Source of the DNA: Magnetococcales bacterium
Lineage (GTDB): Bacteria > Pseudomonadota > Magnetococcia > Magnetococcales > UBA8363
Length of the DNA: 48,099 nucleotides
Direction of reading: 5' to 3'
Assembly (NCBI GenBank): GCA_015228975.1
Contig: JADGCN010000015.1
Coordinates: 1 to 48,099 of the forward strand
Shown here: in pieces, positions 21,563 to 45,764 of the stretch
Layout of the letters: each line of letters begins with the position of its first letter
Position numbering within the stretch: the first letter of the stretch is position 1
Notes under the pieces: generated by a model
Seen by the model: the letters and a program-made list of their open reading frames with translations, nothing else
Databases searched by the model: none
What the model was told of the DNA's origin: nothing
Program-made: the position numbers and the translations under genes

Positions 21563-21595
21563 AACCCGGCCAGGTCGTTGCCTGACCGGGTTTTT
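21563..21595 (+). terminator. Rho-independent terminator after mamD-like gene
   Basis: AACCCGGCCAGG-tcgttg-CCTGACCGGGTT followed by TTT. Confidence 0.75.
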
Positions 21596-21601
21596 CCATT
21601 T

Positions 21602-22504
21602 GTGAGGGTGACGGTGGGGCGAAAGTTGAGCTGTGGTGATTGTGTGATGAAATCGGTGCGGCTGGATTTGGCCGTAGCCGCTGGTCAGGCTGTGTTCAAT
21701 GGTGCCCTCGGTTCTTTGGCAGGGAGCGTGGCCCTGCATGCCTTTGCGTTGCAATTTTTGGGTGATTTGTTGGGCAAAAGTGTGAATTATCTGGGCATTC
21801 GCGCATCCATCCGACCTGCGGATGCCGACTTTCCCTATGGTTATGGCAAGATACAATTTTTGACGGCCTTGTTCGTCGGTTTGGTGTTGCTGGTCGGGTC
21901 GATCTCTTTCATGTACTACAATATCATTCATCTGCATGAAGGAAAGGTTACAGCCCCTTCGGGGTTGGCAATTGTCGGAACGCTTTTGACCGGGTCGGTT
22001 TGCGAGGTGATGCACCGGTACATGTCCTGTGTGGGGCGAGAAAATAATAATTTGGTCATTACGGCGGCGGCCTGGGACAATCGTAACGATGCCTTGTCGG
22101 CGTTGGCAATCCTGTTGGGGGTGGTTGCGGCTTGGTTGGGGATGACCTGGGCCGATCATCTGGTGGCATTGGTTGTCTCTTTGTTGGTGATGCGGGCTGG
22201 TCTCATGATTGTGACCGACGCGGTCAAAGGATTGTTGGATGCTCGTGCCCCGGAACATATCCTGAAGGAGGTCGAGGATATTGTTGATTTCCTCCCGGAG
22301 GTTCGATGCAAGAAAAGTTTACGTGGGAGGAGGTTGGGGGATACCTGGGAACTGGATATTGTTTTGGGTGTTGATCAGGGGCTTTCCGTTACCCAATTGC
22401 ACCATTTGGAATCCAATTTGATTAAACAAATTTATCAGCAAATATCGCATATTGGTCATGTTCACGTCAGCTTCATTCCAAATTCAGAGGGTGATGCGGT
22501 TTGA
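21602..22504 (+). CDS. CDF cation transporter paralog (third CDF, MamB-like)
   Basis: LSCGDC N-terminal CxxC; MHRYMSCVGRENNNLVITAAAWDNRNDALSA closely resembles MamB MYRYQSCVGRENNSPAIIANAWDNRSDAISS. Confidence 0.8.
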   Translation: MRVTVGRKLSCGDCVMKSVRLDLAVAAGQAVFNGALGSLAGSVALHAFALQFLGDLLGKSVNYLGIRASIRPADADFPYGYGKIQFLTALFVGLVLLVGSISFMYYNIIHLHEGKVTAPSGLAIVGTLLTGSVCEVMHRYMSCVGRENNNLVITAAAWDNRNDALSALAILLGVVAAWLGMTWADHLVALVVSLLVMRAGLMIVTDAVKGLLDARAPEHILKEVEDIVDFLPEVRCKKSLRGRRLGDTWELDIVLGVDQGLSVTQLHHLESNLIKQIYQQISHIGHVHVSFIPNSEGDAV

Positions 22505-23220: not shown

Positions 23221-23275
23221 TTCTATTCTATTCTATTCTATTCTATTCTATTCTATTCTATTCTATTCTATTCTA
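23221..23275. repeat. Pentanucleotide microsatellite (TTCTA)11
   Basis: Eleven perfect TTCTA units read directly. Confidence 0.98.
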
Positions 23276-23291
23276 TAATGTATTTATTAAA

Positions 23292-23545: not shown

Positions 23546-24313
23546 TTGAATATGCCAGTAGCTCAAAATACCGTGGTCGTGGCTAACGGGGAACTTGCCA
23601 AACTGACAGGCAAAACGTTCGTCGTTGAAGGAGTCGGGACCAAGAGTGCCGTCATCGTGCCGCTCACCGGGGCGGATGGCAAGGCGATCACCACCGGGCA
23701 AAAGATCATGCTGTCGAAAAATGCCACCATTGAAGGCTTGGCCAAAACGGGTGCTGGTAAAGCGGCGACCGGAGCCAAAACAGCCCAGATGGGTAACATC
23801 GCCGTAGTGGGTAACAAAACGGCGGCTGCCAAGGCCGGAATCGTCCTCCCGAAATTGGTTGAGATTGAAGGGGCCGGTAAACTGGTCGGCACCGGACAGA
23901 CCGTGGGCTTGAATGGCTTGGAAATTCGCGGGGTTCTGCAACCAGGTCCAAACGGAACGGAAGTGTTGTTCCAGGGTGGTGAGGCCAAGCTAACGATTAA
24001 AACGGCTGCCGCCAAAGCCAAGGCGGTCGGGGCTACCGCTCTGACCAAGGGGGCGGGGGCCGCAGGCAAAGGGACAGGCGTGTTGGTCAACCAAGCACCG
24101 ACGGTGGCGGCAGGTTCTGTAGCAGGTTCTATGACAGGCTCCGCTGCCGGTACGACAGCCGCGAAAGCTGCTGCGGCAGGGACCATCTGGAAGGGTACCG
24201 GACTGAGTTTGGGTTTGGGGCTCGGCCTGGGTGCCTGGGGTCCGGTCCTGTTGGTGGGTGCCGTTGCGGCAGCCGGTGTGGGTGTCTACAGCTACATGAA
24301 ACGTAAGGCCTGA
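23546..24313 (+). CDS. MamD/Mms6-family LG-rich magnetosome protein
   Basis: LTGKTFVV repeats; Ala/Lys-rich middle; GTIWKGTGLSLGLGLGLGAWGPVLLVGAVAAAGVGVYSYMKRKA. Confidence 0.72.
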   Translation: MNMPVAQNTVVVANGELAKLTGKTFVVEGVGTKSAVIVPLTGADGKAITTGQKIMLSKNATIEGLAKTGAGKAATGAKTAQMGNIAVVGNKTAAAKAGIVLPKLVEIEGAGKLVGTGQTVGLNGLEIRGVLQPGPNGTEVLFQGGEAKLTIKTAAAKAKAVGATALTKGAGAAGKGTGVLVNQAPTVAAGSVAGSMTGSAAGTTAAKAAAAGTIWKGTGLSLGLGLGLGAWGPVLLVGAVAAAGVGVYSYMKRKA

Positions 24314-25257: not shown

Positions 25258-25435
25258 TAAACCGCAACCAACGCGGGATACGTAGTTTTCCCGCGTCATT
25301 CCCGCGAAAACGGGAATCCAGAAAGTCAGGGAAAGGTGTGTAGATCCCCCCGATTTAGGCTCTCGGGGGCGGGCTCTGGATCCCCGCTTTCGCGGGGATG
25401 ACAATAACTACACATTCCAAGATAGCTGCGGTTTA
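25258..25435 (-). mobile_element. MITE-like element copy 2
   Basis: TAAACCGCAACCAACGCGGGATACGTAG...GATAGCTGCGGTTTA; reverse orientation relative to copy 1; internal ATTCCCGCGAAAACGGGAAT hairpin. Confidence 0.85.
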
Positions 25436-26230
25436 GGTATAACACACGATACGTTCACCGATGGTCAGCCAACGTTTGATCTCTTTGTCGTGGGGTCGTA
25501 TGGCGGCTGCTTTGCGCCAAGCGTCCATGGCTTTGTTGGTCTGATCCAGTTTGGCGTGGGCAATGCCAAGGTAATAGTGCAAGTGGAACCGATCCGGATG
25601 GGTCAGGGAGGCAGGCGCCAGGACATTGATGGCTTCCTTACGTTTGCCCGATAACAGCAGTGCTTTGCCCAGGAGTGTGGCAACGCCAGCATCGAAGGGA
25701 TGACTGGTTTGCAAGGTCCGTAACAGTTCAATGGCTTCATCAAGGCGTCCAAGGCGGGTATAGGCCAAACCCAGATTCATATCGCAGGCATAGTCATCTT
25801 GCCCCAGTTCCCGGGCGCGTTGCAGGAACTTGACCGCCTTGGCGTAGCGTTTTTGATTGACGTGCTGGATACCAACCCTTTTTTCCAGCGCCCCGGGCAT
25901 CGCATCGCTGTCCTCCTGGGACTGGGGGGTGACAAAATGGATCCCCTTGATGGTGATGGGATTGGCTTGGGCATCAAGTGCCGCCAACAGGCGTTGGGCT
26001 GTTGCCGTCTGCCCCATGAACGTGGGATGGGGGGGGGAGGACTCGCTTGACCCCGCAGGTTCATGGCTGGTGTCGGGTGAGGCAACCGGGGTATGCTTGT
26101 AACATCCTTCAGAACTGGCAATGGGTGCTGCCGTGCCAATGGTGGCGGGATATTCAAAAGCCTGATCGGGCTCGGTAGCCGGGATAGTGGTAAAGGTGAG
26201 GGTTTGGTTGGATGTTGAAAGCTTGTTCAT
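25433..26230 (-). CDS. TPR protein, MamA-like paralog
   Basis: KRYAKAVKFLQRARELGQDDYACDMNLGLAYTRLGRLDEAIELLRTLQ...LGKALLLSGKRKEAINVLAPASL...YLGIAHAKLDQTNKAMDAWRKAAAIRP; its stop codon region lies in the end of MITE copy 2. Confidence 0.75.
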   Translation of the reverse strand: MNKLSTSNQTLTFTTIPATEPDQAFEYPATIGTAAPIASSEGCYKHTPVASPDTSHEPAGSSESSPPHPTFMGQTATAQRLLAALDAQANPITIKGIHFVTPQSQEDSDAMPGALEKRVGIQHVNQKRYAKAVKFLQRARELGQDDYACDMNLGLAYTRLGRLDEAIELLRTLQTSHPFDAGVATLLGKALLLSGKRKEAINVLAPASLTHPDRFHLHYYLGIAHAKLDQTNKAMDAWRKAAAIRPHDKEIKRWLTIGERIVCYT

Positions 26231-35078: not shown

Positions 35079-36116
35079 ATGATGCAAGAAATGGATAAAA
35101 CCTTGTTTCTGGGGATTGATCTGGGTACTTCGCGCACAACCATCATGTCCAGCCGTGGTGGCAAGGGGTTGGTGCGTTCGGTGGTCGGCTATCCGAAGGA
35201 TATCCTGGGGGTCAAACTGCTGAATCGCACGTTCGCGGTGGGGGAAGAGGCCCTGGCGAAAAAATCCTATATGGATCTGCACTTCCCTTTGGAGGATGGT
35301 GTTCTCAAGGAGACCGGAGAGCAGAACACCCAGGCGGCCCGTGAACTCCTCAAACATGCGATCAGTTTGGTTTCGCCGGCACCTGGGGACCGCTTGTGTG
35401 GTATTCTGGGCGTGCCCGCCCGGGCGTCGGTGACCAACAAGGGACAGTTGCTCAAGATTGCCGATGAGGTGATGGATTTGTCCATGGTGGTATCGGAACC
35501 GTTCATGGTTGCCTATGGTCTCAATCGATTGACCAATGCCATCATTGTCGATATCGGTGCTGGGACCACCGACCTGTGCGCCATGAAGGGGACTATTCCT
35601 TTGCCTGAGGAACAGGTGACTCTCCTGAAGGCGGGGAGTTATGTGGATGATATTTTGGCAGCCGCTATCACCGAGGCCCACCCCGAGGTGCAGATGACCA
35701 ATCTGCTGGCTAAAAAGCTCAAGGAGCGTTTCAGTCATGTGGGGCCGGGTCCGCAGGAAGTGGCCATGGTGGAACTGCGCTCAGGAGGCCGGCCCAAGAA
35801 TTATGACATTGGCCGCGAGGTGCGCTTTGCATGTGAAACCATTGTCCCGGATATTCTGGAAAATCTGGAACAATTGATCAGTGTGTTTGACCCGGAAGAT
35901 CAGGCGGAAGCGGTGAAGAACATCATCCTGGCCGGGGGTGGATCCTGCATCAGGGGATTGGATCAAATGATCAAGGAAGGATTGAAATCTTTTGGTGAGG
36001 TCCATGTGTTCAAGGTGGATGAACCCGATTATGCGGGTGCGGCAGGGGCTCTCAAGTTGGCGACCGAATTGCCGCCCGATTATTGGACGCAGGTCGGTGA
36101 TGTCGTCGGGGAATGA
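35079..36116 (+). CDS. mamK: MamK-like bacterial actin
   Basis: LFLGIDLGTSRTTIMSSRGGKGLVRSVVGYPKDILG; IIVDIGAGTTDLCAM; AGGGSCIRGLDQMI. Confidence 0.93.
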   Translation: MMQEMDKTLFLGIDLGTSRTTIMSSRGGKGLVRSVVGYPKDILGVKLLNRTFAVGEEALAKKSYMDLHFPLEDGVLKETGEQNTQAARELLKHAISLVSPAPGDRLCGILGVPARASVTNKGQLLKIADEVMDLSMVVSEPFMVAYGLNRLTNAIIVDIGAGTTDLCAMKGTIPLPEEQVTLLKAGSYVDDILAAAITEAHPEVQMTNLLAKKLKERFSHVGPGPQEVAMVELRSGGRPKNYDIGREVRFACETIVPDILENLEQLISVFDPEDQAEAVKNIILAGGGSCIRGLDQMIKEGLKSFGEVHVFKVDEPDYAGAAGALKLATELPPDYWTQVGDVVGE

Positions 36117-40894: not shown

Positions 40895-41557
40895 ATGAGA
40901 CGCGATGAGCAGGGCGTGAATCCCATCTCGGAGGTCGGCTTCTTTTTGCATGCCGCACTCCATGTGGTGAAACGGGCTTTTGTTGCGGCTACCGAAAGTT
41001 TTAACAATTTTTTTTCAGTCGATCCGGAATTTCGGGTGCGCTACTATCGGGAACGGGGCACGGAGTATACCCGGCGTGGACGCTATGATGCGGCGGCAAC
41101 CATGCTGGAAAAGGTGCTTGAGGAGTGGCCCGGAGATGAGGATACCCTGTTTCATTTGGGGTTTTGTTATCTGAAAATGAATCGGACCCAGGAAGGCATC
41201 GAACTGTTGGAACGGGCGGATGCGTTGGGTCGTGGTGGTACCCGGGTGCGCTCCATCCTGGGGATGGCCTTCCTGCAAACCAAGGAGTATGCCAAGGCGG
41301 TGATCGTGTTGGAAAAAGCCTTGGAAGAGGATGCCCATAACTTCCATCTGAACTATCGAATGGCCCTGGCATTGGATAACCTGGAAAAATATGAGCGCGC
41401 TGTGGAATTTTTCACAAAGGCGGCGGCGATACGTCCGGATGAGCCCAAGGTTTTTCGTTCATTGGGATTTACCCTGGAACAGTTGGGCCGCCATGAGGAT
41501 TCGGTAGCGCAATTCAAGAAGGCGGCGAACCTGGAAGAGGGGCGCCCCGCGTATTAG
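40895..41557 (+). CDS. mamA: MamA-like TPR protein
   Basis: Tandem TPRs RYYRERGTEYTRRGRYDAAATMLEKVLEEWPGDEDTLFHLGFCYLKMNRTQEGIELLERA...; directly after mamP. Confidence 0.88.
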   Translation: MRRDEQGVNPISEVGFFLHAALHVVKRAFVAATESFNNFFSVDPEFRVRYYRERGTEYTRRGRYDAAATMLEKVLEEWPGDEDTLFHLGFCYLKMNRTQEGIELLERADALGRGGTRVRSILGMAFLQTKEYAKAVIVLEKALEEDAHNFHLNYRMALALDNLEKYERAVEFFTKAAAIRPDEPKVFRSLGFTLEQLGRHEDSVAQFKKAANLEEGRPAY

Positions 41558-41750: not shown

Positions 41751-44700
41751 GTGTCCGATACTATTGATCCCGTGGATGCGATAGACACTTCCAAGTTGGA
41801 AGAAAATCTTTGGGCTGCCCGCATGGATCGAATGGATGCCATGATTCAGGGGGCCATGATGAAGCGCCAGGCAATGGTTGCTCTGGAAACGGCTATCCCT
41901 GTTGCAAGCAGTGAAAGGATGGGGGAGGCCACCGATAGCGTTTATCGTGCGCTGATGGAAAAACAGGTGAGTTTGGCTGCGGGGGATATGGAGGCGCAGC
42001 TTGACGAGGAGGGTGGAACGGACGAAGCGAATGGATCGGATGAGGAGGGTGGTGCGGACGAAGCGGGTGGATTGGGCGAGGAGGAATGGGCGGGCGAGGA
42101 GGGTACGGACGAAGAGGATAGGGCGGACAGGGAGGAAAGAACGATAGAAGAGGGTGGAGCGGACGAGGTCATTCTGCAAAACCTGGCAGTATCACGGATC
42201 CCTGATGCTACTGGTGTGGCATCGACGAAGACTGCGAATCGATTGGCGCACACCGCGACGATGCGTGTTCAGGAAAAGTCGGAACCGGGGAACTCGTTGG
42301 AGAATGGGGGAGGGGATAACGAAAAATTGGAGCTGCGATTGCTTCCACGGTCGCATTTGCAATCGGGTAGCAAGGTTGAAGATAGCGCACCATTTGTGAT
42401 ACGGGGTCCAGATGGGGGGAGGGGCGAGGCGGTTGAAACACAGAACAGGCAGAGTTCGGATGCTGAGGGGGGAGATCAGGAATTTGGGTATGGGGGCGAT
42501 GTGGCATTGCCCCACAGGAGTCGGGATATTCATGCCGAACCAACGCCTATGGAACTGTTCCAGATCATGTCGCATAAACGGCAGGTGGGCGTAACGCAAT
42601 CGTTGCAGTCCAGTCTTGAAATGGGGACCACTTCCGTACGCTGGAGCGAGGGTGCGGCGCAACGTTTTACTGGGGATGACCTTTTTTTGGAAGTGGTGGA
42701 AAAGAGTGCGGCCCCTGCGTCCGCAGGTGGTCTACCCGACCTTCCCCTTCCTGGGCACATCGAACAACCGCTCGCGGTTAGGACAATTCCACCTGACCAA
42801 AATACCATGTGTCGTTTTCTGTCCTTGTTTGGGCAATTGCGTCAGCAGGAGACCCGGGTGGCATCTCGGGATGTCCATAATCGGGAGGTGCGGCAGCCGG
42901 AAGTTGGACCGGTTGTATCTTCGATGCAGAGGGTGGAACATCGGCAGGTGCGGCAACCGGAAGTTGGACCGGTTGTATCTTCGATGCAGAGGGTGGAACA
43001 TCGGCAGGTGCGGCAACCGGAAGTGGAATCGGTTGTATCTCCGATCCTTGCGGAAGACAAAATGGGCGTGGCAGTCCCAGTGACCGAAGAGGGGGCACCT
43101 GCCCCTCTTGTGACGGCTGACGAGCTTGTGGTTGTGGAAAAGAACAGATTATCACGCGCATTGCATGATTTTCGGAATCATAGACAGGCGATGATGGTTG
43201 CGAGTGAGGTAAAGACTCCAGGATTGATCCCCGGGTCGGTAAGTTCCGGGCATGCGTTATCCAGGCTTTTGGTTGAGGAGGAAACCCTGGATGATCAATT
43301 TGTTGCAACAGAGGGTGAGGAAGCGACAAACGCTAATGACTGGAATGATTCCCGGGAATTGTCGGAAATGCCACTTGGTAGCGCTTTGGAGGATAGAGAG
43401 GCCGTTGGCGTTTTTGAAGATATCGTTGCGGTTGTTTCTTCAGAGGAAATAACAGGGATTGAAGTTTTGGAAGATGCCGAAGCGTTTGGCGTTCTGGAGG
43501 AAAATGAGGGCGTTGGTGTTTCTGAAGATATCGTTGCGGTTTTTTCTCCGGAGGAAATAACAGGGATTGAAGTTTTGGAAGATGCCGAAGCGTTTGGAAC
43601 TCTGGAGGAAACTGAAACCGTTGGCGTTTTTGAAGATACCGTTGTGGTTGATTTTCCGGAGGAAAAGGCCGGGATTGAAGAATTGGAAGATGCCGAAGCG
43701 TTTGGTACTCTGGAGAGTGGCGAGGCAGATGGCGCTTTGGAGGAAGTCATTGAGGTTGGCGCACTGGATGAAAGTGAGGAAAGCGGTGTTTTGGCGGATA
43801 TGGAAGGGGTTGGTATTTGGGAGAATACCGAACTGACGGTTGGTATGGAGACCAAGGTTACGCCATCGGTCCCGGACGCCTATCAACGGCACCATGAAGA
43901 AACGGTGTCCGAGCTTATGGCAAACATGACCCTGGAGGAAGAAAGAGAGGGTGTCCGTGGCGAGGAACCCGACTTGCCTATCCCCGCTGTGACGCGTGGC
44001 AGGAGGAGGTTCAGTCAGAAAAGGTTGCCAGAGGGTTTCTTTACACAGGATATTCGGGATTCCCAAGGTACTGAAAAGGGTGGCTTGGTTGCCGGGGGGT
44101 ATGGTGCCAAGCCGTTGGTTCGGGTTCATAGGTTGGATGAGTTGCATTTTGCTTGGCGCTCATTGGTGCGTATGTTCGGGAGCTTTTCCGAATCCTTGGT
44201 ACGGAAATATTTGGAGTGGACATCCCTGGATGGCAATGCCTGGACTGAGTATTACCTGACCCGGGGTCGTAGATCCTTGGCTTTGGGAAGGGTCCATGAT
44301 GCGGTGTTGTACTTTGGCAGAGCCTTGGAAAAAAATGAAGACAATGCGTCCATTTTGGCAGCTTTGGGGCGCTGTCATATCACATTGGGATCCTTCGAGC
44401 AGGCATTGAATTATTTGGAAAAGGCCAAGGAACGGGATCAAGCGGGTGGGGCGTGGCTGGACGCTGACCTGATCGTGGCCTATAGTGGATGCCAGCTCTT
44501 TGATCAGGCGGAAAGATTGTTGCGACATGGCCTGGATGAAGATCGAAGTGCTTCAAGTGATCGGTCTGCCTTATGGTTTCAGCTTGCGGAACTCCTGGCG
44601 CGTCAGGAGCGCCACGCCGATGCCGTCGCGGCCTATCGTGAGGCAGTGGCCCTCAAACCGACACGTCGGGATTATCAGCGGGCGTTGGGGTTCGCTTTGC

Positions 44701-44792
44701 AGATGGTGGGGCAAAGCAAAGAGGCGGTTGCCCATTTGAAAATGGCTGAATCTGTGGATGATAGGGAGTTGACCCCTGGAAATTTGGGGTAG
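41751..44792 (+). CDS. Large acidic, repeat-rich protein with C-terminal MamA-like TPR domain
   Basis: Glu/Asp/Gly-rich stretch (DEEGGTDEANGSDEEGGADEAGG...), two repeat arrays, C-terminal TPRs (NAWTEYYLTRGRRSLALGRVHDAVLYFGRALEKNEDNASILAALGRCHITLG). GTG start at 41751 or TTG at 41730. Confidence 0.8.
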   Translation: MSDTIDPVDAIDTSKLEENLWAARMDRMDAMIQGAMMKRQAMVALETAIPVASSERMGEATDSVYRALMEKQVSLAAGDMEAQLDEEGGTDEANGSDEEGGADEAGGLGEEEWAGEEGTDEEDRADREERTIEEGGADEVILQNLAVSRIPDATGVASTKTANRLAHTATMRVQEKSEPGNSLENGGGDNEKLELRLLPRSHLQSGSKVEDSAPFVIRGPDGGRGEAVETQNRQSSDAEGGDQEFGYGGDVALPHRSRDIHAEPTPMELFQIMSHKRQVGVTQSLQSSLEMGTTSVRWSEGAAQRFTGDDLFLEVVEKSAAPASAGGLPDLPLPGHIEQPLAVRTIPPDQNTMCRFLSLFGQLRQQETRVASRDVHNREVRQPEVGPVVSSMQRVEHRQVRQPEVGPVVSSMQRVEHRQVRQPEVESVVSPILAEDKMGVAVPVTEEGAPAPLVTADELVVVEKNRLSRALHDFRNHRQAMMVASEVKTPGLIPGSVSSGHALSRLLVEEETLDDQFVATEGEEATNANDWNDSRELSEMPLGSALEDREAVGVFEDIVAVVSSEEITGIEVLEDAEAFGVLEENEGVGVSEDIVAVFSPEEITGIEVLEDAEAFGTLEETETVGVFEDTVVVDFPEEKAGIEELEDAEAFGTLESGEADGALEEVIEVGALDESEESGVLADMEGVGIWENTELTVGMETKVTPSVPDAYQRHHEETVSELMANMTLEEEREGVRGEEPDLPIPAVTRGRRRFSQKRLPEGFFTQDIRDSQGTEKGGLVAGGYGAKPLVRVHRLDELHFAWRSLVRMFGSFSESLVRKYLEWTSLDGNAWTEYYLTRGRRSLALGRVHDAVLYFGRALEKNEDNASILAALGRCHITLGSFEQALNYLEKAKERDQAGGAWLDADLIVAYSGCQLFDQAERLLRHGLDEDRSASSDRSALWFQLAELLARQERHADAVAAYREAVALKPTRRDYQRALGFALQMVGQSKEAVAHLKMAESVDDRELTPGNLG
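42889..43032 (+). repeat. 60-bp (20-aa) tandem repeat
   Basis: Unit ggtgcggcaaccggaagttggaccggttgtatcttcgatgcagagggtggaacatcggca repeated with 60-bp period; 2 near-identical copies plus a degenerate partial third. Confidence 0.92.
43390..43720 (+). repeat. 108-bp (36-aa) acidic tandem repeats
   Basis: EEITGIEVLEDAEAFGVLEENEGVGVSEDIVAVFSP-type units; GAGGAAA phase points at 43443, 43551 and 43659. Confidence 0.9.
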
Positions 44793-44804: not shown

Positions 44805-45764
44805 GTGTCCTTTAACGAAGATGATGCGCCAGTGGCTGAACATTCAGACGATCATTTTGAACAGTTGGGCGGGTTGGGTCCGGAGACGAGCAATTCGGAG
44901 CGTGTGCGCCGGATGAAACGTTTGCTGCGTCAATTGTACAAGGATGAGTTTTCGGGCAGTCGCCTGCGTTTGCCACCGTTCAAGGTAAAAGGTTTGGTTG
45001 TATCTTTGTCGCTTCTGTCAATAGTTATTTTTGGCGTGACGACTCTTTATAATTTTAATATATTTATTACCTTTGAAGAAAAAATTTTATCGGCCAAGGG
45101 GCATATCCAAGATGCCTTGCAGCGGCGGGCCAACCTGTTTACCAACTTGATCAATTTGACATTGAATCAGGCCGCCTTGGAGCAGGAGGTGTTTCGGCAC
45201 GTTGCCGATGTGCGGGCGGCCATGGCGGGACAGGAACGGGGGAGGAAAGATGGGGGGGTGGCAGGAGACAAACAGCCGGGGGCGGGAGATTCCAAACCGG
45301 GTGAGTCGGCTGGGGCGGCAACCAGGGCACAGGGATTGGCAGCCGCTCTGTCCGGAATGGAAGGGGGGGCTTCCATGGCGAAACTCATGGCGGTTGTGGA
45401 GCAATATCCCGAAATCAAATCATCGACCACCTATCAGCAACTCATGGATAAATTGGTGGAGATTGAAGACCGAATCATTTCACGTCGGGATGGCTATAAC
45501 GAGGATGTCCGCGTGTACAACACCCTGATCACCTCGTTTCCCTGGTACATCCTGGCCCATATTACCGGATTTAAACGCTACGAATATTTTACCATGGATT
45601 CCATGAATCAGAGCGACAAGCAGGTATTATCCAACCTTTCCTCCATGGAGTTTCAGCGCCTTCTTCCACTGGCTCCAGGTCAAAAACAGGATGCCAACCG
45701 GAAGGAGCTGCCAGTCCAACAGGGTGATGGCAAATTGCCCGCGAACAAGGAAAGCGCGCCGTGA
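44805..45764 (+). CDS. mamQ: MamQ-like LemA-family protein
   Basis: VYNFNIFITFEEKILSAKGHIQDALQRRANLFTNLINLTLNQAALEQEVF...; position before mamB. Confidence 0.85.
   Translation: MSFNEDDAPVAEHSDDHFEQLGGLGPETSNSERVRRMKRLLRQLYKDEFSGSRLRLPPFKVKGLVVSLSLLSIVIFGVTTLYNFNIFITFEEKILSAKGHIQDALQRRANLFTNLINLTLNQAALEQEVFRHVADVRAAMAGQERGRKDGGVAGDKQPGAGDSKPGESAGAATRAQGLAAALSGMEGGASMAKLMAVVEQYPEIKSSTTYQQLMDKLVEIEDRIISRRDGYNEDVRVYNTLITSFPWYILAHITGFKRYEYFTMDSMNQSDKQVLSNLSSMEFQRLLPLAPGQKQDANRKELPVQQGDGKLPANKESAP

Follow-up and report, generated by a model that had tools for sequence, protein, structure and literature searches.

A MamA-related paralogue with a long acidic arm, a candidate coat-borne tether in four families of magnetotactic cocci

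The 48,099-nucleotide stretch analysed here (the window; contig JADGCN010000015.1 of the Magnetococcales bacterium assembly GCA_015228975.1, positions 1 to 48,099 of the forward strand) carries a magnetosome operon in the order mamH, mamE, mamK, F-like, mamM, mamO, mamP, mamA, X, mamQ, mamB, mamS, mamT, where X is our label for the gene, and its protein, in the mamA-mamQ interval. The names mamH, F-like and mamT rest on position and homology only, and mamB, mamK and mamM exceed their curated NCBIfam cut-offs. The source genome comprises 3.75 Mb in 234 contigs and is 75.9% complete. X and its immediate surroundings are as follows.

41751..44792, plus strand: protein X, 1013 amino acids (aa), with an acidic, predicted disordered N-terminal region and a C-terminal MamA-like domain; open reading frame (ORF), coding signal and orthologues in the same slot
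44133..44789, plus strand: C-terminal MamA-like domain of X, a helix preceding the tetratricopeptide repeats (TPRs) plus five TPRs, recognised by NF040959, hhalign, AlphaFold2 (AF2) and Foldseek
40895..41557, plus strand: mamA, NF040959 213 bits (cut-off 200), parent family of the C-terminal domain of X
44805..45764, plus strand: mamQ, NF040966 246.9 bits (cut-off 250), starting 13 bp after X (3 bp in the family f6 contig L081)

X is open in a single frame from 41730 (TTG) or 41751 (GTG) to 44792, and the GTG is probably the true start, since in the genus alignment the L071 orthologue begins at the matching residue. Relative to the 84%-identical orthologue of genome G041, differences number 60, 90 and 121 at codon positions 1, 2 and 3, and the ratio of nonsynonymous to synonymous substitution rates (dN/dS) is 0.48 overall and 0.18 in the C-terminal domain, a codon-position pattern and selection signature by which the coding of X is real. 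The ORF of about 1,010 residues reported in a preliminary description of this DNA, made from the letters alone, is thus one gene with a GTG start. Counts of promoter and terminator patterns near X were equal to or below those in shuffled sequences. In the same operon slot, Magnetococcus marinus MC-1 and Magnetofaba australis IT-1 carry a gene marked 'HP' (PMC3934378), which is probably the 'mamA-like gene inside the mamAB cluster' of PMC6783814; the literature reports it as a hypothetical or mamA-like gene. The open-access papers searched, with subscription papers mostly outside that search, contained no description of the architecture, mamA-duplication origin, conserved islands or distribution of X; the gene is already on record as a hypothetical protein, and its architecture seems undescribed.

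The C-terminal domain matches MamA along its whole length and not in its repeats alone. Beyond a Pfam TPR_2 match (4e-14), the NCBIfam MamA model NF040959 spans residues 803-1010 of a 1020-aa reading of X, covering model positions 1-203 of 204 (E 4.3e-18), and hhalign of the domain against the MamA of the window gives 99.1% over 198 columns. AF2 modelling of the domain from a 29-row alignment returned eleven helices in a five-TPR hook fold with a predicted local distance difference test score (pLDDT) of 84.8. In a Foldseek search of the PDB the model matches the MamA structures 3asf, 3vty, 4xi0 and 5lfl with target-normalised template modelling (TM) scores of 0.65-0.88; ranked by E-value, generic consensus TPR proteins come first and MamA of Magnetospirillum, Magnetobacterium and Desulfovibrio follow, and this search of solved structures yielded nothing beyond these two classes. 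The pre-TPR helix is kept even in the most diverged copies, two from family f14 and one from f2 matching MamA/X-specific models there, whereas a generic TPR protein from the window aligns to these models only from the TPRs on. The MamA-like C-terminal TPRs of the preliminary description are accordingly present, but belong to a complete MamA homologue that includes the pre-TPR helix. X shares with MamA (NF040959; PDB 3AS4-3ASH, 3VTX/3VTY, 4XI0) the helix, the five TPRs and the operon, adjoining mamA itself, and differs from it by an arm of about 800 residues in front, while an ordinary mamA is also present. Judged by its sequence, the domain is a MamA-related paralogue and not MamA itself.

In a phylogeny built from 28 MamA sequences, 15 X domains and one outgroup TPR, families f1 (to which the window belongs) and f6 contribute 12 of the X domains, which form one clade (100/100) nested inside MamA, and because of this nesting the X genes of these two families are read as having arisen by mamA duplication. 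Family f14 supplies the other three copies, all on very long branches, and their union with the f1 and f6 domains in one clade was neither demonstrated nor rejected (approximately unbiased test, p 0.217, run without genome G040). An X-type gene follows mamA in 7 of 8 f1 genomes (in two of the seven, the pair is not shown on an uninterrupted stretch or is split by an insertion), in 5 of 5 f6 genomes (in G009 with mamA and X on separate contigs), in 3 of 3 f14 genomes and in two f2 genomes, where its TPR part is decayed and a third contig ends too early; the total is 17 genomes in four Magnetococcia families. Named relatives in the genus of the window (g1) are the metagenome-assembled genomes HA3dbin1, C5_bin.1, nHA5abin3, nWRX3bin6, DCbin2 and DCbin4, and the X-type protein of the MC-1-like genome G038 occupies the mamA-mamQ slot at L089:6321-9398. 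In eight further families (f4, f5, f7, f8, f9, f11, f12 and f13) mamQ directly follows mamA without X. The same holds for G045, the eighth f1 genome, whose MamA (L082) groups with other families and whose mam cluster, on this sequence evidence, looks horizontally transferred or replaced. A survey for the fusion after mamA, proposed with the preliminary description, thus turned it up in four families, and homologues with an unrelated role outside magnetosome clusters, which that description named as a refuting observation, did not appear: all X orthologues found lie in such clusters, and no g1 genome yields more than two strong matches, these being X and MamA.

Several loci depart from the common arrangement. 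The f2 genes (L156:2967-4841 and L157:1131-2963) have largely lost their TPRs and do not adjoin mamQ. Genome G043 (DCbin4; L075, L097:10471-11133 and L098:6647-7309) carries two mamK genes and mamA in triplicate, and the gene after X in its main operon is mamB instead of mamQ. In G044 (L070:8128-12885) an insertion of about 4.7 kb separates mamA from X, with ORFs that by eye resemble glycosyltransferase and methyltransferase genes and a gene for a large membrane protein.

The N-terminal arm has an isoelectric point of 4.31, an Asp plus Glu content of 20.9% and a net charge of -98, and contains repeats and short conserved islands.

41775..41891, plus strand: island M1, residues 9-47, helix LWxARMxRMDxMIxxAMMKRQ, common to family f6 (QWMDRLARTDKLMAKVMR); AF2 helix 9-47
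41928..41981, plus strand: predicted helix, residues 60-77, alignable only in the window and G041; weaker in AF2
42003..42168, plus strand: Asp/Glu/Gly-rich tract, 18/36-bp period
42513..42620, plus strand: island M3, residues 255-290, EPTP[ML]E[LI]FxxM, in 7/7 of the genus; AF2 helix 266-287
42768..42845, plus strand: island M4, residues 340-365, PLAVRTxxPDRxxVxRLLxSFGxSR, in 6/7 of the genus; AF2 helix 350-360
42880..43045, plus strand: 20-aa tandem repeat, 60 bp x 2.8, 94% match, score 290
43113..43202, plus strand: island M5, residues 455-484, LxRLLxDFRxHRQ, in 6/7 of the genus; AF2 helix 456-484
43387..43758, plus strand: 36-aa acidic tandem repeat, 108 bp x 3.0-3.3, 81-86% match, score 429-476

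The coordinates, periods and acidity of the Asp/Glu/Gly-rich tract and of both arrays were reproduced, confirming the repeats as first described, although they prove to be labile: the 20-aa unit is present once in G041 and three times in the window, which by sequence marks the array as a recent local expansion, and the repeat units of the arm vary among lineages. This turnover is like that described for the acidic repeats of MamJ, the repeat itself not being the same. In the genus alignment most of the arm cannot be aligned, and the four islands M1, M3, M4 and M5 stand out across orthologues that are just 26-34% identical over their length. Against G041, dN/dS is 0.09 in M1 and 0.14 in M3 versus 0.62-0.74 in the acidic linkers and 0.74 over residues 500-790 around the 36-aa array, M4 (0.59) and M5 (0.51) being indistinguishable from linkers in this single comparison. 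These ratios point to purifying selection on the C-terminal domain, M1 and M3 and to drift of the linkers and repeats. Outside f1, M1 is also present in f6, in all four proteins with an assembled N-terminus (QWMDRLARTDKLMAKVMR and similar), where shuffles reach its score at most 1/2000 per protein, the four being related and not independent; it was not found in the f14 X proteins, and a DNA pattern built for it was not specific. M5, M4 and M1 are mutually similar in a fixed register, M4 and M1 being the best other arm matches of the M5 profile in four proteins. In the full-length AF2 model pLDDT is below 50 over most of the arm outside the helices, which include a further weak one at residues 711-724, and the whole-chain predicted TM score (pTM) is 0.32. 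No membrane- or signal peptide-like segment was found in X (its top 19-residue hydropathy, 1.16, is not C-terminal), and the protein is therefore probably cytosolic.

The preliminary description had suggested that X combines the roles of MamA and MamJ in a lineage with no obvious mamJ. Like X, MamJ and LimJ of Magnetospirillum are acidic, repetitive and mostly disordered with a hypervariable middle, and X shares the acidic repetitive region of MamJ; in contrast to them it has a MamA domain and lies in the mamA-mamQ and not in the mamE-mamK interval. We compared X with the published N-terminal (DXWX2LLEXSPWS) and C-terminal (VPVEX4GXFX2AXSA) motifs of MamJ (PMC2818848) and with its membrane anchor, a C-terminal glycine-rich hydrophobic helix (PMC11628618). 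Neither motif occurs in any of 15 X proteins, the relaxed core of the second included, and X has no such C-terminal hydrophobic anchor. As copies of the MamJ-type N-terminal motif the islands were rejected as well, M3 giving p 0.08-0.91 in both directions and M5 a best p of 0.04 in one of four. X was thus discarded as the MamJ of its lineage on motifs, anchor and gene position, and on the existence of a separate MamJ-type family, whose loci are as follows.

35079..36116, plus strand: mamK of the mamAB operon, NF040964 498 bits; the sole mamK found in the source genome
34948..35078, no strand: mamE-mamK gap of 131 bp without a mamJ-position gene; other lineages carry a MamJ-type gene here
L153:10339-14103 (MC-1-like), L090:17212-19377, L147:9244-11472, L148:5062-7638, L149:275-2818, L150:3362-6214 and others: MamJ-type genes upstream of mamK
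L147:7671-8030, L148:9096-9416, L149:4020-4346, L150:1768-2223, L098:2119-2406: small MamJ-type relatives downstream of the second mamK
L151:5609-6031, L152:5411-6409, L154:588-1265: short mamE-mamK genes outside Magnetococcia; an almost pure (AE)n tract in one of them

In the lineages examined other than f1, the mamE-mamK interval holds a long low-complexity gene, known as maq1 (PMC6783814) and as a shared hypothetical protein, locus 02790 of IT-1 (PMC3934378). Its products share the C-terminal motif V[PE]VExLGxG[IV]xNxLGDxVGG, which overlaps the first half of the C-terminal MamJ motif (e.g. VPVESLGEGIF in G015); among 23 mamK-adjacent proteins the relaxed VPVE signature core occurs in 11, a broader core in 16, and the strict form in none, as is true of the strict N-terminal motif. 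Curated Pfam and NCBIfam models gave only low-complexity matches on these mamJ-position proteins. Searched with a profile, 44 of 48 Magnetococcia genomes contain the motif, among them every one of the 27 that are at least 90% complete, and where its position is resolved the gene sits immediately upstream of a mamK. We infer that the mamK-adjacent proteins are MamJ homologues on the strength of their motif, composition and position. They resemble X in being long, of low complexity and in the same magnetosome clusters, and differ from it by the V[PE]VE motif, a mostly Gly-rich hydrophobic tail and the lack of a MamA domain; it is they, and not X, that look like MamJ-type proteins. The family coexists with X in f6, f14 and f1. 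In the genus of the window the MamJ-type gene precedes a second mamK, encoded at a different locus, and the operon mamK has no such neighbour. Neither the second mamK nor the motif was found in the 75.9%-complete source genome, probably owing to that incompleteness, since the 97%-complete relative G041 has both. The preliminary premise of a lineage with no obvious mamJ thus does not hold. Of the proposed double role, the MamA half is supported as to the derivation of the domain, by its sequence, predicted fold and phylogeny; the MamJ/MamK half is not supported. Two observations adjoin this family: in the genus of the window the second mamK is usually followed immediately by a small relative of the MamJ-type motif, of about 95-150 aa, and the non-Magnetococcia genomes G122, G152 and G415 carry short mamE-mamK interval genes with a similar ending, VEGLFDGVINxxG or VEDLFNGVINALG, that are likely mamJ relatives.

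MamA coats the magnetosome vesicle from outside and self-assembles, and mutation of its first TPR helix breaks its complexes (PMC3905215, PMC4482739). Our preferred if tentative explanation is that X is a duplicated MamA turned coat-borne tether. Its C-terminal domain would dock into the MamA layer that covers the cytosolic side of the magnetosome, through the pre-TPR helix and TPR groove as in MamA self-assembly; the charged arm would reach outward into the cytosol as a brush, and its short helices would bind a partner involved in the spacing, linking or positioning of magnetosomes. As this partner, a magnetosome-positioning factor or the MamA layer on an adjacent magnetosome is more likely than a MamJ-style membrane-to-MamK bridge, since a separate MamJ-type protein already exists in the group. 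A MamK role is nonetheless possible, notably with the operon MamK that lacks a MamJ-type neighbour in the genus; MamK of the genus member DCbin4 is reported to work in M. gryphiswaldense (PMC10653835). Several points weigh against a coat-borne tether. Co-assembly with MamA may have been lost, as the domain scores 65.5 bits against the equivalog cut-off of 200 and is about 25% identical to MamA, and when it is modelled alone pLDDT is about 56-61 over the first 30 residues, the pre-TPR helix. The f2 copy of G002 has almost no TPRs and retains little beyond that helix. Among the islands only M1 crosses family borders, M3-M5 being seen in the genus only, and a search for M5 in other families gave no match.

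The arm could instead act within the coat, its helices docking in the grooves of MamA or of X domains and stringing MamA units together with no cytoskeletal partner. TPR grooves bind short helices, the MamA groove is a known binding site (PMC4482739), and the fixed-register likeness of M1, M4 and M5 in four proteins fits such serial docking; that likeness is, however, modest, M3 fits it poorly, and the full-chain AF2 model, judged by its pTM, offers no confident arrangement, so that we regard an internal cross-linker as unlikely, if not far-fetched. Rather unlikely, too, is a functional analogue of MamJ, in which the MamA-like domain binds the coat and the acidic arm binds MamK, bridging magnetosomes to filaments. 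The acidic, repetitive architecture with its hypervariable middle does resemble MamJ (PMC3905215), the g1 operon mamK lacks an adjacent MamJ-type gene, and X is present in the chain-forming MC-1-like G038 and absent from G020, taken as UR-1, whose magnetosomes are clustered (PMC6783814), a contrast drawn from very few strains and confounded by descent. The missing motifs and anchor, islands unlike MamJ-type proteins and the coexisting MamJ-type protein in three families nevertheless speak against it, and acidic repeats are weak evidence of function because those of MamJ are dispensable (PMC2818848, PMC3905215).

That X is a drifting, dispensable mamA duplicate that acquired low-complexity sequence is improbable. 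Long stem branches in the tree, truncated TPRs in f2, near-neutral linkers and the absence of X from eight families are what such decay would leave, yet the frame is open in all orthologues read, the domain, M1 and M3 bear the mark of purifying selection, the slot is retained in four families, and the islands persist where overall identity has fallen to 26-34%. Least credible, and very improbable indeed, is an acidic biomineralisation protein binding iron or the growing crystal, for which the acidic composition speaks and nothing else: X has no signal peptide- or membrane-like segment, and should not meet the crystal because MamA, to which it is homologous, encloses the vesicle on the outer side (PMC3905215).

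Elsewhere in the window, a perfect TTCTA x 11.2 repeat (23221-23276) lies about 270 bp upstream of a Mms6/MamD-like ORF (23546-24313) and may provide phase-variable spacing. The same island encodes a further TPR protein of 265 aa (25433-26230, minus strand), which may correspond to the 'MamA-like' protein described near mamD in strains MC-1 and IT-1, and an ORF between the MamD-like and Mms6-like ORFs (21578-22504) that by eye resembles a cation-diffusion-facilitator transporter and would be the third of its kind alongside MamB and MamM.

Because mamJ and mamY are reported absent from cocci (PMC2818848, PMC6783814), the alignment or clustering of magnetosomes in these bacteria calls for an explanation, and MamA, although conserved, is described as having an unknown exact function (PMC4482739). 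The two families considered here provide separable candidates for coccus magnetosome arrangement, the putative MamA-derived coat tether X and the mamK-adjacent family whose C-terminal motif overlaps the MamJ signature, and X would offer a natural long-armed MamA variant for probing the coat. It is conceivable, though we hold it doubtful, that the four coccus families possess a coat-borne second tethering layer, formed by an acidic-brush MamA paralogue with docking helices, beside a separate MamJ-type adaptor; if so, chain or cluster geometry would depend on two systems, one membrane-anchored and one carried in the MamA coat.

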